Source: Dehalococcoidia bacterium (lineage in GTDB: Bacteria; Chloroflexota; Dehalococcoidia; Dehalococcoidales; W498). Taken from it: 9,207 nt of DNA. The DNA lies in the NCBI GenBank assembly GCA_030608125.1, contig JAUWEU010000019.1, positions 1 to 9,207 on the forward strand, written 5' to 3'. Shown piece after piece: positions 1,219 through 8,373 of this stretch. Positions within the stretch are counted from its first letter, which is position 1. Every line of letters starts with the position of its first letter. The notes under the pieces were generated by a model that saw only the letters and a program-made list of their open reading frames with translations, was not told the DNA's origin and did no database searches. The translations under genes and the position numbers were made by a program.

Positions 1219-1995
1219 CTATCCTAAACCACTAATTGGGGCGTGAGATTTCAGCCAGTCCAAAACAGCAGCCATTGCCCTATCATTTTGCCGTAGCTCG
1301 TGCTCGGCTCCATCAATTATGATTAGCTGCTTAGGTTCCCCGGCTTCATCATATAGCTTATAGGCATGACTGACCTCAACAGTCTCATCCCTGTTGCCAT
1401 GCACCAATAGTAATGGTCTGGGAGAAATTCTAGCTACATATTTAATAGGGCTAATCAGCCTGAAGCCACTAAGCCACTCTTGAGCAGAGTGAGGGAAATC
1501 CTTATCCCTGATGGCGCCAATGCTGCGAAAGTGGTTGACAACAGCCTGCGGTTCATTAACCTCAGTAAGGAAGCTAAACTCTGCCGGGCAGGCACAGGTT
1601 ACAACAGATGATACCCGCCTATCCTGTGCTGCCACATATACTGACACAGCAGCTCCACCGCTAAAACCGAGCAGTGACAGATGAGACTTATTCACCTCAG
1701 GCAAAGTGCATAAATAATCAATAGCTGCCTTCAGGTCCCTGGTCCAGCCCGAAATGTCAAGATTCCCACCGCTAGCCCCCGTCCCTCTGAAATTGAAAGT
1801 CAATACGGCAAAGCCGTGGTGGCAAATCCTTTCCGCCAGTAGGGGGTAGTCTTTATGATTGGGGTCGGGGCTCTTAGCCGGAATACCATGACAAATGCAA
1901 ACAGTAGGAAACAAACCCTTACCTTCACCGGGCAAGTAAAGCTCACCAACAATGTTTAAGCCCTCTATTTCCAGAGCAACACTCTTCCTAAGCAT
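1219..1995 (-). CDS. alpha/beta hydrolase, dienelactone-hydrolase/acyl-peptidase-like
   Basis: A 258-residue cytosolic serine hydrolase with no signal peptide or membrane segment. The visible triad is Ser112 in the nucleophile elbow GFSGG (110-114), Asp203 in HGNRDETV, and His232 in GAEHE. The oxyanion-hole His-Gly is at 36-37 (CHGIPA), and FRGTGAS (69-75) is the usual loop after strand 4. Length and motif spacing fit small single-domain esterases, dienelactone hydrolases and the catalytic domain of acyl peptidases; the substrate cannot be read from sequence. Its ATG shares one base with the tlyA stop (TAATG), so the two are almost certainly co-transcribed and translationally coupled. That does not prove a shared function. 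The family is clear; the reaction is unknown. Confidence 0.9.
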   Translation of the reverse strand: MLRKSVALEIEGLNIVGELYLPGEGKGLFPTVCICHGIPAKSPDPNHKDYPLLAERICHHGFAVLTFNFRGTGASGGNLDISGWTRDLKAAIDYLCTLPEVNKSHLSLLGFSGGAAVSVYVAAQDRRVSSVVTCACPAEFSFLTEVNEPQAVVNHFRSIGAIRDKDFPHSAQEWLSGFRLISPIKYVARISPRPLLLVHGNRDETVEVSHAYKLYDEAGEPKQLIIIDGAEHELRQNDRAMAAVLDWLKSHAPISGLG

Positions 1996-2720
1996 TATGT
2001 CAACCTCAGTAGAACAAAAAATTCCTTATTTCCTGAAGCACCGGGGATAGGTGACGCCACCAGTCCCTTCAGCCTGATGCCATGCTCTATCGCCCAGGCG
2101 ATGAAGCGCCCCAGAACTCTGGCATGCACTAGAGGCTGCTTAATCACTCCCCCCTTGCCCACCTCCCCTCTCCTAGCCTCAAACTGTGGCTTGATGAGCA
2201 CTAGTAAATAACCATTATCTTTGATTAACCTAGCTACAGATGGTATTACCTTCTCCACTGAGATAAAGGACAAATCCATAGTAGCCAAATCTACCTTTTG
2301 CGGCACAGGGATAGGATAGCGGGCATTGACCCTATCCATAACCACCACCCGTGAATCCTGCCTCAAACGGTAGTCTAGCTGACCATAGCCGACATCAATA
2401 GCATAAACCCGGCTTGACCCGTGCTTGAGCAGGCAATCGGTGAAGCCACCGGTTGATGCCCCAACATCAGCCACTACCTTAGCCGAGACATCAAGCTGGA
2501 ATTTATCCAGAGCATGCTCAAGCTTAAGCCCACCCCGGCTAACAAAAGGAGGCGGCTCAAGTATAGTAATTACCGCCTCCTCATTTACCAGAGTTCCCGG
2601 CTTAATAACAGCTTTTCCCTCGACCATTACCTCCCCAGCCATAATGAGCGCCTGAGCCTTGGCTCGGCTCTCCACCAACCCCCTCTCAACTATCAAGCTA
2701 TCAATCCGCCGCTTGGTCAC
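1995..2720 (-). CDS. tlyA: TlyA family rRNA (cytidine-2'-O)-methyltransferase
   Basis: Probable SAM-dependent 2'-O-methyltransferase acting on rRNA cytidines (16S and/or 23S in characterised TlyA proteins). Its 241 residues have an N-terminal S4 RNA-binding domain (about 5-60, RIDSLIVERGLVESRAKAQ), the linker SRGGLKL (61-67), and an FtsJ-like Rossmann domain with SAM motif ADVGASTGGFTD (84-95). The expected K-D-K-E catalytic tetrad is present at Lys66, Asp149 (MDLSF), Lys177 (LIKPQFEA) and Glu233 (GNKEFF), with spacing matching M. tuberculosis TlyA as I recall it. The start is GTG, which aligns with the family N-terminus (MTKRRID); no strong Shine-Dalgarno is visible. A copy of the dispersed repeat lies about 17 nt upstream. 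It overlaps the downstream hydrolase by one base. The old name 'hemolysin' is misleading. Confident. Confidence 0.95.
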   Translation of the reverse strand: MTKRRIDSLIVERGLVESRAKAQALIMAGEVMVEGKAVIKPGTLVNEEAVITILEPPPFVSRGGLKLEHALDKFQLDVSAKVVADVGASTGGFTDCLLKHGSSRVYAIDVGYGQLDYRLRQDSRVVVMDRVNARYPIPVPQKVDLATMDLSFISVEKVIPSVARLIKDNGYLLVLIKPQFEARRGEVGKGGVIKQPLVHARVLGRFIAWAIEHGIRLKGLVASPIPGASGNKEFFVLLRLT

Positions 2721-2729
2721 TGCTTATCT

Positions 2730-2757
2730 ACCACTGTACAAACATCGGGATGTATGT
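2730..2757 (+). repeat. dispersed palindromic repeat, copy R1 (tlyA junction)
   Basis: The core is ACCACTGt followed by a dyad with arms ACAAACATC and GATGTATGT around GG (2738-2757, one mismatched pair). The first 20 bases of this core differ from copy R2 at a single position. It lies between the tlyA GTG start and the GNAT stop, so close to tlyA that it must be in that gene's leader if transcription comes from upstream. Beyond the core, similarity to the other copies fades. Confidence 0.8.
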
Positions 2758-2800
2758 TAATTCATAATAAAAATAGTAGAGTCTACAACTTGCAATTAGT

Positions 2801-2819
2801 AAAAAACAAGCTATTGTTT
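2801..2819 (-). terminator. weak intrinsic terminator after the GNAT gene
   Basis: On the minus strand, AAACAA (2819-2814), loop TAGC and TTGTTT (2809-2804) are followed by three more T. The stem spans the TAG stop of the GNAT gene. It is only six A/T-rich pairs, so termination would be inefficient. The rest of the gap down to tlyA holds an 11-bp palindrome, GTAGAGTCTAC (2776-2786), and repeat copy R1. Confidence 0.3.
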
Positions 2820-3467
2820 ATCCAAGTTTGAGCTCGTGCGTAGCTCATTGGACTTTTCTCTTAACATAGCCCAATTAGTAAGCTTAGTTTCGGGAATGGC
2901 AGATTTCTCGATTACCTTAAAACCGAAGTGCTCATATAGCCGGACATTTATTTCGTCCAGAGTCTCGAGATAGCACGGTAAACCTTCTTCATCTATTCTG
3001 GCAAACTTTGCGCGCAGCAGCTTACCTGCGTAGCCTTTTCTCTGAAACTGAGGGTCTACCCCGAGGGTCTGCAAAAACCAATGCTTGAAAGGGGCCAGAC
3101 GCTTGTGCATTGCGTCTATATACTCACCAAAATACTTCATTCTAGCGCCACCCGCTCTGCCGAAACTAATCATCATTGAAAGTGGAACGGAGCGTATTGA
3201 TCTCCAAAGTGTCATAGGATAATTATCAGACGTTAACCAAGCGGCGACGCCTTCCAGATTCGGAGATGTAGCATAAGTTTCACCATACCGAACACAATAA
3301 CTAAGGATATACTGGAAAAAGTAAGGTGCTATTTTCTTCCTTTCGAACTCGTCGGGGAAGGAATACTGAAGTGCCGGGTAATTTTGAAATGCCCGAGTCA
3401 GCACTTCAGCAGCAGGTTTAATATGGGACTTATTCAATTGCACGAGATCTTTTAAATCAGTGCCCAT
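2811..3467 (-). CDS. GNAT family N-acetyltransferase
   Basis: A cytosolic acyl-CoA-dependent acetyltransferase fold of 218 residues from the ATG at 3467, or 228 from the TTG at 3497 (residue numbers here count from the TTG). The CoA pyrophosphate-binding motif A is LGVDPQFQRKGYAGKLL (145-161), with the R/Q-x-x-G-x-G/A pattern at 153-158; motif B is NVRLYEHFGFKV (184-195). The N-terminus, KSHIKPAAEVLTRAF (23-37), resembles small GNATs acting on peptides, polyamines or drugs; the substrate cannot be assigned. I chose the ATG because it gives a normal family N-terminus and lies about 36 nt after a possible transcription start; neither start has a good Shine-Dalgarno. The gene is a single-gene unit bounded by repeat copies R1 and R2, which suggests an accessory insertion between dnaN and tlyA. 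Confidence 0.88.
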   Translation of the reverse strand: MGTDLKDLVQLNKSHIKPAAEVLTRAFQNYPALQYSFPDEFERKKIAPYFFQYILSYCVRYGETYATSPNLEGVAAWLTSDNYPMTLWRSIRSVPLSMMISFGRAGGARMKYFGEYIDAMHKRLAPFKHWFLQTLGVDPQFQRKGYAGKLLRAKFARIDEEGLPCYLETLDEINVRLYEHFGFKVIEKSAIPETKLTNWAMLREKSNELRTSSNLDKQ

Positions 3468-3508
3468 AGGGTTTATAGAACTCTGACTTTTTCCCAACGC
3501 ATTACTAT

Positions 3509-3536
3509 TCTATATTTAGAACCTTAGTTGTTGCAA
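3509..3536 (-). promoter_or_regulatory. possible promoter of the GNAT gene
   Basis: On the minus strand, TTGCAA (3536-3531), a 16-nt spacer and TATAGA (3514-3509). The match is moderate. The predicted transcript would start only a few bases before the TTG at 3497, which is one reason to prefer the ATG at 3467. The TTGCAA box is part of the 8-bp palindrome GTTGCAAC. Confidence 0.35.
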
Positions 3537-3599
3537 CTCATGTATCGCTAATTTTAATAAACTGAACAATCCCCTAATTCTTTTTCGATGATCAAAAGG

Positions 3600-3672
3600 T
3601 CACCACTGCACAAACATCGGGATGTCTGTCCAGCGATGCGTATGGCTATTCAATTCCGTTTTCAGCGTCTAT
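3600..3672 (+). repeat. dispersed palindromic repeat, copy R2 (long form)
   Basis: The core TCACCACTGc plus the dyad ACAAACATC / GATGTcTGT around GG occupies 3600-3629. Similarity to copy R3 continues without a gap through shared blocks ATGCGTAT, TATT, CCGTTT and CTATA at identical offsets. My hand count over 70 aligned bases (3603-3672 against 4465-4534) is 51 matches. It lies between the GNAT and ABM-like genes. Confidence 0.8.
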
Positions 3673-3702
3673 ATCAAGGGATAGATAGGCGAAAGTAATA
3701 AT

Positions 3703-3725
3703 CCAAGCAAATGTGCATTGCTTGG
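3703..3725 (-). terminator. hairpin downstream of the ABM-like gene, possible terminator
   Basis: A perfect 8-bp inverted repeat, CCAAGCAA (3703-3710) and TTGCTTGG (3718-3725), encloses a 7-nt loop. On the minus strand it is followed by ATTATTACTTTC, a poor but T-rich tail, about 130 nt after the ABM-like stop. The intervening 3726-3855 contains no gene, only small stems such as GAGGC/GCCTC (3805-3822). Confidence 0.4.
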
Positions 3726-3855
3726 CGGACAAATAATTCTCTCCGGATAAAACAGTCTGTCAGATCCGCCCTATGACTTTCAAAGTTGAGGCAAATCGTC
3801 GCTCGAGGCGGACTGTAGCCTCCAGAAGATGTGCGCCAGAGGACCACCCACTAAC

Positions 3856-4146
3856 TTACGCTTTCGGTTCGTAAACTTCAAATAACCGACGGGTCGGTGG
3901 CCCTTTAACGATCCCGCTAAGGGCCTGTTCTATTTGGGGACCCAAGACTTCACCAGCGGCCTCAACCTCTTCTTTTGACTCCCATAGGCTCAGCGAGCCA
4001 TACTCACCTACTGTCTCATCACCTATGTATGTCACGCTTTTGAAACCCTTGATGGTCTTATGTTTGGAAGCAAACTGATCCGCAATTTTCTCTGCTGTCG
4101 ACCGCATTCCCGGCCCTAACGTAAACATAAACAGCTGTGCATACAT
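3856..4146 (-). CDS. ABM-like dimeric alpha/beta-barrel protein (putative)
   Basis: A 96-residue small cytosolic protein. The pattern fits one ferredoxin-like repeat of the antibiotic-biosynthesis-monooxygenase / stress-responsive barrel superfamily. An N-terminal strand MYAQLFMFTLGPG leads into a helix (about 15-28), then GFKSVTYIGD and EYGSLSLWESKEEVEAA, a typical strand pair and helix with the conserved 'S-x-W-E-S' feel, and a final strand RRLFEVYEP. Such proteins usually dimerise; roles range from quinol or haem oxidation to none known, and I see no residue set that fixes the activity. Expression signals are unusually good: GGAGG (4154-4158) lies 7 nt before the ATG and a TTGACA promoter lies further upstream. 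The gene sits alone between repeat copies R2 and R3, like the neighbouring GNAT gene. The CDS is secure; the fold assignment is moderately so. Confidence 0.85.
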   Translation of the reverse strand: MYAQLFMFTLGPGMRSTAEKIADQFASKHKTIKGFKSVTYIGDETVGEYGSLSLWESKEEVEAAGEVLGPQIEQALSGIVKGPPTRRLFEVYEPKA

Positions 4147-4265
4147 TACTGTTCCTCCTTTTTAAGAAATATTGAGTGTCATCCCGTTCCACCCAGTCTT
4201 CTAGTCCGACATTTCCCATTTCAACTCGCGATGAGTTAATTCTACTCCGTTACCATCTGTATTAG

Positions 4266-4294
4266 ATACTACATCCACGGCATCTGCTTGTCAA
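4266..4294 (-). promoter_or_regulatory. promoter of the ABM-like gene
   Basis: On the minus strand, consensus -35 TTGACA (4294-4289), a 17-nt spacer and -10 TAGTAT (4271-4266). Transcription would begin near 4259, leaving a leader of about 110 nt before the ATG at 4146. No riboswitch or stable hairpin is obvious in that leader. This explains part of the 4147-4544 gap; the rest holds a 7-bp inverted repeat CTCATCT/AGATGAG (4328-4354) and repeat copy R3. Confidence 0.6.
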
Positions 4295-4461
4295 GACTCG
4301 TCTCTCAGCTCTGCAGCACTCAGAATGCTCATCTATCAGCGATGACCAGATGAGAGACCTCAATCGGCTCAAGGCGTGGCTTTACCAGCAGAGGACTCGT
4401 GTAAGGTTAGACAGAGAACGAGCCGAGAGGCGACAGCAGAAAGAGGAACCTTATTCCCTAA

Positions 4462-4534
4462 TGACCACTGAACAAACATGGGGATGTTTGCCCTTATATG
4501 CGTATAAATATTTGATACCGTTTGCCTTTTCTAT
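4462..4534 (+). repeat. dispersed palindromic repeat, copy R3 (long form)
   Basis: The core ACCACTGa plus ACAAACATG-GG-GATGTTTGC (4472-4491) still forms a 7-8 bp stem. The right flank matches copy R2 as described there. It ends directly against copy R4, so two copies are almost adjacent behind dnaN. On the minus strand the hairpin could weakly terminate dnaN transcription. Confidence 0.78.
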
Positions 4535-4544
4535 AAAGTGAAAA

Positions 4545-4571
4545 TCACCACTGGACAAACATCGGCATGAT
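4545..4571 (+). repeat. dispersed palindromic repeat, copy R4, inside the dnaN 3' end
   Basis: TCACCACTGgACAAACATCGG is shared with copy R2 except for the variable base, followed by CATGAT in place of GATGTnTGT, so the right dyad arm is incomplete. Read on the minus strand it supplies the last codons and the TGA of dnaN. The codons for Ile-Met-Pro-Met, native to clamp C-termini, coincide with the repeat segment that reads CATCCCGATG in R1 and R2. Confidence 0.75.
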
Positions 4572-5678
4572 GACATGGACATAGTTATCCACCCCTACCG
4601 GGCGGATAACGCCAGGGCTGGATGGATTGGTCGTCTCCAGGGCTACCTGTGCCTCATGAAGCACACTAAGCACATCGCTTAGATACTTGCCATTAAAGGC
4701 AATCTTTGCCTCCTCACCCTCGACAATAGCATCAATCTCACCAACATCATCGCCTATCTCTTCAGAACGGGCTGAAACAGTTATCTTGCCCGGGGTTAGC
4801 TCACCACCCGGAGTTATCACTAAACGGACAATGCCACTGCCATCACGGGCAAAGATAGAAGCTGTCTTGGTCGCTCTTAAGAATTCAGCGACACTAACTA
4901 TTGCCTGGGTAGTGTAGCTCTGGGGAATAAGCTGGGTATATTGGGGAAAGGTGCCCTGAACAAGCTGGGATACCAGCTCAATATTCTTCAAGCGAAATAG
5001 AGCCTGGCTCTTTTTAGGATTTACTGTTATCTCAACTGCCTCCTCCTCATCAACCATAAGCCGATTTAGCTCAGCCAAGGTTCGGCTTGGAATAATGACC
5101 TCGGTCTTCTGGCTAACCGGGACGGCAAGAGGCAGTTTGTATACGGCTAATCTAAAGCCGTCGGCGGCGGCTAATGTCAGCAAATCACCATCAAACTGGG
5201 CATCAACACCAGTACGCACCGGGCGCGACTCTTCGGTGGCAGCGGCACATATAACATGGGTAATTCCTTGACGAAGGGCATCTACCTCTACCCTGGTGGT
5301 AATGCCCTCATCAACCCGGGGTATAGGTGGGAAATCCTTGGCATCAACCCCGCTGATTCGTGCCTCAAAGCGAGCACACTTTAATCCCAAGGTCTTGGTC
5401 GGAGGGGAAAGGTTAATTTCAACCTTCTCGCTGGGCAAGGAGTTAATGAACTCGGTAAGAAGTCTAGCCGGAACGGTAATTGCCCCCTCTTCCTCTACTT
5501 TGGCACCAATCCAGCAACTAATAGCCATTTCCAGATTGGTGGCAGCTAGCTTGAGACGAGACTGGTCGGTGGCTAAGAGAACATTATTGGTTATAGGCAG
5601 GGTTGTTCTGGTAGCTACTGCTCTCCCGACCACGCTAAGCCCCCGATTTAGATTCTCCTGAAGACATGACAACCTCAT
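4545..5678 (-). CDS. dnaN: DNA polymerase III beta subunit (sliding clamp)
   Basis: The ring-shaped processivity clamp that tethers the replicative polymerase and serves repair and initiation-control factors. At 377 residues it has the usual length, with three clamp folds (about 1-120, 130-252 and 255-377). Landmarks are VVGRAVATRTTLP (16-28), ADGFRLAVYKL (172-182), IIPSRTLAEL (195-204), QGTFPQYTQLIP (241-252), FNGKYL (338-343) and IRP (358-360). The C-terminus runs NYVHVIMPM and then FVQW instead of the usual MPM-Arg-(Leu) end; those last codons belong to repeat copy R4. The ATG follows GGGGGGTG with 5-7 nt spacing and a good promoter. dnaA and recF are not adjacent, so the gene has left the classical origin cluster or the cluster was broken up. 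It seems monocistronic. Identity is certain. Confidence 0.97.
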   Translation of the reverse strand: MRLSCLQENLNRGLSVVGRAVATRTTLPITNNVLLATDQSRLKLAATNLEMAISCWIGAKVEEEGAITVPARLLTEFINSLPSEKVEINLSPPTKTLGLKCARFEARISGVDAKDFPPIPRVDEGITTRVEVDALRQGITHVICAAATEESRPVRTGVDAQFDGDLLTLAAADGFRLAVYKLPLAVPVSQKTEVIIPSRTLAELNRLMVDEEEAVEITVNPKKSQALFRLKNIELVSQLVQGTFPQYTQLIPQSYTTQAIVSVAEFLRATKTASIFARDGSGIVRLVITPGGELTPGKITVSARSEEIGDDVGEIDAIVEGEEAKIAFNGKYLSDVLSVLHEAQVALETTNPSSPGVIRPVGVDNYVHVIMPMFVQW

Positions 5679-8254: not shown

Positions 8255-8361
8255 GTCATTGCCAGAGATTGCTTCGTCGCTCACGCTCCTCGCAAAGACA
8301 AAAAGGGATGTCATTGCCAGCCTCTTTTTTTGTCATTGCGAGCCGAAGGCGTGGCAATCTC
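8255..8361. repeat. GTCATTGC...GCAATCTC palindromic intergenic repeat element
   Basis: The left arm GAGATTGC...CGCAAAGAC (8265-8299) is an imperfect inverted copy of the right arm GTCATTGCGAG...GGCAATCTC (8332-8361). A further GTCATTGCC precedes the left arm (8255-8263) and another lies in the middle (8310-8318). From memory, repeats of this type are scattered through many bacterial genomes, including Dehalococcoidia; they look like REP/MITE-type elements and have no coding capacity. It fills the space between cobO and hisA and supplies the spurious upstream ATG of cobO. The internal T7 run (8325-8331) is part of the spacer. Confidence 0.75.
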
Positions 8362-8373
8362 AGTGGTGGAGCA

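Follow-up and report, generated by a model that had tools for sequence, protein, structure and literature searches.

The dnaN–tlyA interval and its repeats

What has come to lie between dnaN and tlyA in a Dehalococcoidia bacterium? The stretch analysed here (the window: 9,207 nucleotides, positions 1 to 9,207 of contig JAUWEU010000019.1, GenBank assembly GCA_030608125.1) carries on its minus strand dnaN, the gene for the DNA polymerase III beta clamp (4545..5678; three DNA_pol3_beta Pfam domains, ending ..VIMPMFVQW*), and tlyA, encoding an S4 plus FtsJ-like methyltransferase protein (1995..2720; Pfam FtsJ and S4), which would originally have stood directly downstream of dnaN. Four plus-strand copies of a short repeat, R1 to R4, divide the interval into units A (2748..3619; 872 bp from GG to GG), B (3620..4481; 862 bp from GG to GG) and C (4482..4564; 83 bp, the R3–R4 spacing). 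An earlier, sequence-only reading of this DNA had claimed four same-orientation copies, none elsewhere in the window, and had given the first two spacings correctly. A search with CCACTGNACAAACATCGGGATGT at ≤3 mismatches bears the claim out, returning plus-strand copies at 2731-2753, 3603-3625, 4465-4487 and 4548-4570, no fifth copy in the window and none in 200 dinucleotide shuffles. The palindromic core attributed to all four holds for R1 to R3, whose dyads are imperfect; R4 has the left half only and no dyad, because its right side is dnaN coding sequence (GGCATGATGAC). The full TCACCACTG is present in R2 and R4 only.

On the minus strand, the bases of the repeat's left half spell CCG ATG TTT GTN CAG TGG stop, the end of dnaN (…VIMPMFVQW*), and the base recorded earlier as a variable n is the wobble base of the valine codon in the dnaN frame. 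Judged by sequence, all four repeats copy the closing codons of this sliding-clamp gene. R4 (4545..4571, plus strand; GG 4564-4565), attL-like and with a right half that is dnaN coding, is the current dnaN 3′ end. The outer copies had been said to touch the housekeeping genes; R4 does more than touch dnaN, being its last codons, and R1 lies about 10 bp from the start of tlyA. The sequence-only reading had thus recognised a real repeat and missed its identity as the dnaN 3′ end itself, the nature of R1 as an old dnaN end, and the recombinase, a large serine recombinase (LSR).

The dnaN frame is imprinted on copies well beyond the window. Across 218 distinct copies, the left half varies mostly at four positions counted from the centre, -12, -9, -6 and 0, and scarcely at -3. 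The search pattern behind these copies (≤2 mismatches) favours conserved letters, but it allowed any base at -9 and 0 and two bases at -12 and -6. In the dnaN frame, the four variable positions are where the Gln, Val, Phe and Pro codons have their third base, and the Met codon between them is fixed. A rule on the preceding codons classes 101 copies as dnaN ends and leaves 117 others—a few of them probably missed dnaN ends, and one a phage dnaN—and the same wobble-position variation is found in these 117, so that detached copies, too, bear the stamp of the dnaN frame. The central GG is present in 101/101 dnaN-type and 109/117 other copies. A dnaN match was obtained in 63 of the 95 sequences gathered by the repeat (93 genome stretches, the viral contig L001 and the window, the last two being among the 63), and in all 63 the dnaN 3′ end lies at the repeat. 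Three viral contigs (L001, L205 and L209) encode a distant DnaN of their own, 27-39% identical to that of the window and ending in the same MPMFVQW codons. Since phage DnaN shares this ending, the tail may matter for the clamp, or phage dnaN may itself be a target.

An empty site exists in the metagenome-assembled genome (MAG) E44_bin29 (L143/L090), where dnaN and tlyA are adjacent, 6 bp apart. As far as the site, the flank on the tlyA side is common to this locus, the window and the relatives L140 and L002. Beyond the GG, the window and L140 run into element arms, and L002 agrees with dnaN for only four more bases. R1 (2730..2757, plus strand; GG 2747-2748) accordingly has the left flank of the empty site L143, shared with the sites of L140 and L002, and an element arm on its right, and reads M-F-V-Q-W-TAG on the minus strand (stop 2728-2730), as an attR-like junction of the original dnaN 3′ end would. 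Rejoining the window up to 2748 with the sequence beyond 4565 in silico yields …VIMPMFVQW, TAG, seven bases and the tlyA GTG. Because the tlyA flank is shared and rejoining restores dnaN–tlyA, we read R1 as the old dnaN end and the 1,817 bp behind it as gained. The junctions thus have a short common core and rejoin to an empty site, as those of an integrative element do.

A serine integrase at the dnaN end

LSR genes such as L005 1421-3031 and L040 1252-2784 lie on the strand opposite dnaN and converge on it, the ends of these two (…TTAQTSA and …TTGQTWA, respectively) and the dnaN codons PMFVQW being the same bases read from opposite strands. The Pfam domains Resolvase, Recombinase and Zn-ribbon are all above cut-off in L040 and L059; the Resolvase domain of L005 falls just below its cut-off, and a fragment in L014 had no match. 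LSR matches (E≤1e-20) occur in 34 of 156 genomes of the order. In 15 of 30 LSR loci from the order, the site lies ≤700 bp from the end of the LSR match; it faces the expected way in 14, and dnaN is present as well in 12 of the 15. The 14 include every one of the 11 loci with a best segment ≥45% identical to the L005 or L040 enzyme, three of which (L191, L192 and L194) are C-terminal pieces matched over 71-84 residues. Among the L005 enzyme's 267 listed relatives, the best 120 comprise 67 that end directly after the motif in A, 35 that continue past it, some into antisense dnaN and some into element arms, and 18 without the motif, several of which are fragments. On a 59-row LSR tree, the distribution of rows with the site (44) and without it (15) needs 2 changes, against 13.5 in shuffles (0/500 as low); in this test the site columns were kept in, the database rows were labelled by their C-terminal motif and sampled as every third of those ≥480 aa, near-copies inflate the result, and the 44 site rows are not one clade. 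The sequence-only reading had suggested looking for a recombinase gene at the same repeat, and in many relatives an LSR does end at the site. Its proposal that the recombinase acts in trans or has been lost fits as well, an LSR being present in relatives and none in the window. Two LSR genes with the site also occur on PAYF01000042 (L022, L059), a contig of a Euryarchaeota-labelled MAG, perhaps by misbinning or through a wider host range.

Where is the site on the incoming DNA? Two viral contigs hold it within the 3′ part of the integrase gene. L204 encodes a tape measure protein, a tail terminator and a CI-like repressor, with the structural genes and the repressor on the two sides of the site; L207 has a terminase gene to one side of it, with an HNH-like and further open reading frames (ORFs) to the other. 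With the site lying within an LSR gene on each of these contigs, we read it there as attP. The two enzymes continue past the GG (L204: …IEQTSACLHYDAKFSFTRLMNVC). The dyad is only partial at these two sites and clearer in many attR-type copies. On a further viral contig, L208, an LSR 75% identical to that of L005 ends where it meets dnaN-like sequence at the contig end; for the LSR of L040, six peptide patterns gave no viral match.

The sequence beyond the GG points to a coding tail. In 24 site arms of the same register, the integrase frame continues as GCLSSHAYxYxIPFxFS(I/V), and single-base codon differences among them are 711 synonymous to 516 non-synonymous in the LSR frame, compared with 469:1025 and 138:1235 in the other frames; these counts come from pairs of related sequences, which are not independent, and from arms chosen by a protein-reading motif. 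The arms of R2 and R3 in the window belong to this set and that of R1 does not. R2 (3600..3629; GG 3619-3620) and R3 (4462..4491; GG 4481-4482; its dnaN stop codon lost), both on the plus strand, join a dnaN-tail half to an element arm. Their arms, likewise on the plus strand, look like traces of an integrase C-terminal tail: that of R2 (3621..3673) reads ..TSGCLSSDAYGYSIPFSAS in the LSR frame (tblastn of LSR P0117 to 3571-3672, E 3.3e-6), and that of R3 (4483..4541) ..TWGCLPLYAYKYLIPFAFSIK-stop (LSR P0034 to 4449-4535, E 1.2e-5). By this codon pattern the LSR tail looks like conserved protein, which integration at dnaN would replace. SSV-type archaeal integrases are tyrosine recombinases with attP inside the integrase gene, so that integration alters the gene. 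The placement of attP is alike here; the difference is that a serine recombinase would lose or change only its C-terminal tail.

Arrays and cargo in relatives

The 93 genome stretches are nearly all labelled Dehalococcoidia, Dehalococcoidales, Chloroflexi/Chloroflexota or SAR202, the other labels being Dehalococcoides mccartyi, Thermoflexus, Deltaproteobacteria, Bathyarchaeota and Euryarchaeota. Of 393 genomes sampled from the class of the closest relative, 310 have at least one match to the repeat (≤2 mismatches; a reversed control pattern gave 10 matches in all), and in its order 119 of 156 do at ≤1 mismatch; neither figure counts insertions, because plain dnaN ends are included.

How does the interval differ between relatives? 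L140, the closest full-length relative found (dnaN 92.6% and tlyA 89.6% identical), has an interval of 9.06 kb in which HsdM, AbiD (Abi_2), HsdS and HsdR—a type I restriction-modification system plus AbiD—lie between repeats beside tlyA and dnaN. The L139 island carries an LSR gene and encodes a TIR protein; a HEPN match in it stays below cut-off. In G018 (L144-L146), nine copies extend over 40 kb in one orientation, the last at dnaN, with one more far off on the other strand. Many genomes of the class hold arrays of this sort, and all 65 distinct pairs of adjacent copies at ≤1 mismatch share one orientation (65 after merging overlapping loci, 71 pairs in 44 stretches before; hits <30 bp apart, self-matches of the palindrome, were dropped). 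The dnaN–tlyA intervals of relatives, which the sequence-only reading had wanted compared, thus differ by whole repeat-to-repeat content. Copies scattered at random in both orientations, by contrast, it had named as telling against an insertion array: a minority of relatives do have extra loci on either strand, and adjacent copies all run one way. In three genomes (G423, G425 and G426; L153-L165), sites of this kind occupy several places where dnaN is absent, and the units there often hold a single gene.

The 74 distinct site-to-site units have a median length of 1.26 kb, and 8 of them contain an LSR match (E≤1e-3, three query LSRs). One unit of 1,113 bp is 92.5% identical over its full length between G018 and G150, the similarity beginning at the left repeat and extending ~100 bp beyond the start of the right one. 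A 2.3-kb block (96.8%) precedes this unit in G018 and follows it in G150, so the order of units has changed between the two genomes. The proposal that site-specific insertions built up an array in series, each unit carrying one attachment-like repeat, is supported by this reordered unit, by the whole-unit differences and by the recombinase at the site.

Cargo at five sites (L139, L140, L147, L150 and L167) includes type I/II restriction-modification, AbiD, a TIR effector, and OLD/GajA-like and subtilase-type proteins. With such content, the dnaN end is a candidate hot spot for defence genes; the genes gathered at this locus vary, and in several of the relatives read they include defence systems. 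In the window, unit A holds a GNAT acetyltransferase gene (2811..3497, minus strand; PF13508 3.2e-8, PF00583 1.7e-7), for which a database search returned 536 relatives and showed only a common family. Unit B holds an ORF of 96 aa (3856..4146, minus strand); its former label, ABM-like, drew no backing from Pfam, which gave no match at 1e-3. PADLOC had no defence match for these two genes. Units A, B and C have GC contents of 41.1%, 47.8% and 35.4%, respectively, against 48-49% in the backbone, from which unit B is not distinct. Unit C, of 83 bp, has counterparts of identical length in G416 and G423 (83% and 78% identity), and its sequence opens a unit in G006 (loci L166, L162 and L141); tentatively, it could be the scar of a double-site element end.

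Proposed accretion, its alternatives and known systems

Taken together, the dnaN 3′ end is very probably the attB of an LSR family in Dehalococcoidia, and the window would hold three stacked insertions between dnaN and tlyA whose integrases are gone. The crossover would fall at the site centre, GG (CC in the dnaN sense). On the dnaN-stop side, element and host share ~20 bp encoding PMFVQW-stop, and because of this overlap an incoming element would supply a new working dnaN end and push the old one outward as a direct repeat (attR). Three such events, stacked, would account for the window, with R1 as the original dnaN end, R2 and R3 as internal junctions and R4 as the current dnaN end; the integrase genes would since have been lost, leaving the arms that encode the integrase tail. 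More generally, phages and genomic islands with one LSR family would land at the dnaN end, successive insertions separating dnaN from tlyA. The dnaN-end repeats, the LSRs and attP at the site, the one-way arrays and the different interval content of L140 are the grounds on which the window is best read as a tandem accretion, at a putative dnaN attB, of three decayed or non-autonomous elements. An essential sliding-clamp gene would then receive its last codons from mobile elements, in a class of mostly uncultured bacteria. Extra dnaN-tail copies could serve as a simple marker for mapping islands in such genomes, and the LSRs would form a natural family with many related attB/attP pairs.

Several points weigh against this account. 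Searching the window for LSR remnants found the arms only and no LSR catalytic sequence, no LSR C-terminus is readable at the right end of unit A or unit B, and unit C, at 83 bp, is too small for an ordinary element. Fifteen of the 30 LSR loci lack such a site, and that of L188 faces the other way. At the dnaN-less loci of G423, G425 and G426, similar sites lie in either direction genome-wide, so dnaN is not an exclusive target. The loci were gathered via the repeat or the LSR, which biases frequencies upward, and neither an excised circle nor recombination has been observed, the data being sequence alone.

Need each unit have brought its own integrase? The units may be non-autonomous gene cassettes with their own attP, which an LSR encoded elsewhere gathered at dnaN and shuffled, as a serine counterpart of the integron array, a possibility that we consider real if on balance unlikely. 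It would account for the few LSR matches among the short units, for the 1,113-bp unit shared by G018 and G150 with its 2.3-kb neighbour in swapped position, for units of one array that share ends around unrelated cargo (L169, L158 and L144), and for 83-bp units of the same length in three genomes. However, at least five LSR-less units (u0, u51, u54, u68 and u69, judged by eye) end in apparent truncated LSR C-termini, as decay predicts, and the similarity of the 1,113-bp unit overruns the start of its right repeat, so that it could have spread by homologous recombination. Decay and cassettes moved in trans both fit the unit data, those of the window included; for the window, accretion with decay is favoured. 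A bolder combination, which we put forward with considerable doubt, is that the LSR family uses its attachment site, through which the integrase gene runs, as both a molecular switch and a port for cassettes. In the circular form its tail would read ..GCLSSHAYxYxIPFxFS; integration at dnaN would replace this tail, usually by ..QTSA-stop, while the opposite strand gives the dnaN end. Tail loss would lock integration, and short units that have these ends but no integrase would be gathered in trans at dnaN, in an integron-like serine-recombinase array. If the tail is indeed a switch, this amounts to a testable control of serine-integrase direction without a separate factor.

That the dnaN end was duplicated in tandem, with genes inserted later by other means, would explain why the copies have dnaN coding sequence as their left half, but most non-dnaN copies match dnaN only to the left of the GG and have element arms on the right, and the site is both the end point of LSR genes and present in phages; we consider this very improbable. 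Hardly credible is a palindrome of the repetitive extragenic (REP) type spread by RAYT, or a regulatory or terminator hairpin. The imperfect dyads of R1 to R3 and the copies at several loci in some relatives would suit it; the single orientation of adjacent copies and the wobble pattern of the dnaN frame do not, and no terminator-like site was found at the repeats. A single-strand hairpin was rejected on the folding of R1 to R4, which is little or no better than that of shuffles (z -0.30, -0.12, -1.56 and -0.42). The REP-like scattering that the sequence-only reading had kept as its alternative finds no support here, given the dnaN-tail origin and the one-way adjacent copies, RAYT genes not having been searched for.

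The mode, by analogy, would be like that of SCC at rlmH and of the Dehalococcoides ssrA islands, with another target. The latter belong to the same bacterial class, and PMC3146451 describes tandem islands with direct repeats of the gene 3′ end and variable cargo, an integrase that adjoins attL, and an integration module, with the serine recombinase DsiB, in 16 of 31 islands. There the target is ssrA (tmRNA) and the module has six genes, whereas the target here is a protein gene: the repeat is the dnaN end, and ARAGORN found no tmRNA or tRNA in the window. DsiB and the LSR of the dnaN site are compared by description, not sequence; 'dnaN' is absent from the main text of that paper. The staphylococcal and enterococcal cassette chromosomes (SCC and ECC) are likewise LSR-driven islands inserted at a conserved gene's 3′ end, with direct-repeat att sites and highly variable cargo, according to PMC6222049, which places inverted repeats at attR and at the circle's site; here, similarly, R1 to R3 have a dyad and the attL-like R4 does not. 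Their target is rlmH, where attB lies, and they use paired CcrA/CcrB, whereas the repeat here is in dnaN and the two dnaN-side elements read (L139 and L142) have one LSR gene each, its own 3′ end containing the site.

Stacking at a gene end with integrase-less leftovers is also reminiscent of the accretion of integrative and conjugative, cis-mobilizable and integrative mobilizable elements (ICE, CIME and IME), which according to PMC5704250 integrate successively at one gene end, the leftovers keeping att and losing the integrase. A pneumococcal prophage between dnaN and ychF sits beside dnaN as well; in the portion of PMC6375853 used here it has 14-bp repeats and rearranges the ychF promoter, and the dnaN coding end is not described there as the site. 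An integron proper has an IntI tyrosine recombinase and attC sites that act as folded single strands; here the enzyme at the site in relatives is a serine recombinase, and the folding of the sites is little or no better than that of shuffles. Open-access word searches, which are weak evidence, turned up no description that we recognised of LSR integration at the dnaN 3′ end or of an LSR tail changed by integration. The words 'dnaN' and 'Chloroflex' are absent from the main text of the LSR survey PMC10083194; PMC4068962 deals with the SV1 integrase. The least familiar features are the replacement of the integrase tail on integration and the many units without an integrase.

Among minor features of the window, the promoters assigned earlier to the accessory genes do not stand out: 6 promoter-like sites compare with 3.1 (sd 2.1) in shuffles, not clearly above chance. 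Rfam at gathering thresholds returned nothing in the window. Outside the dnaN–tlyA interval, between cobO and hisA (8260-8370), lie short repeats of the CATTGCGAGCC...GGCAATCTC type that resemble REP-like sequences, which are common in bacterial genomes.

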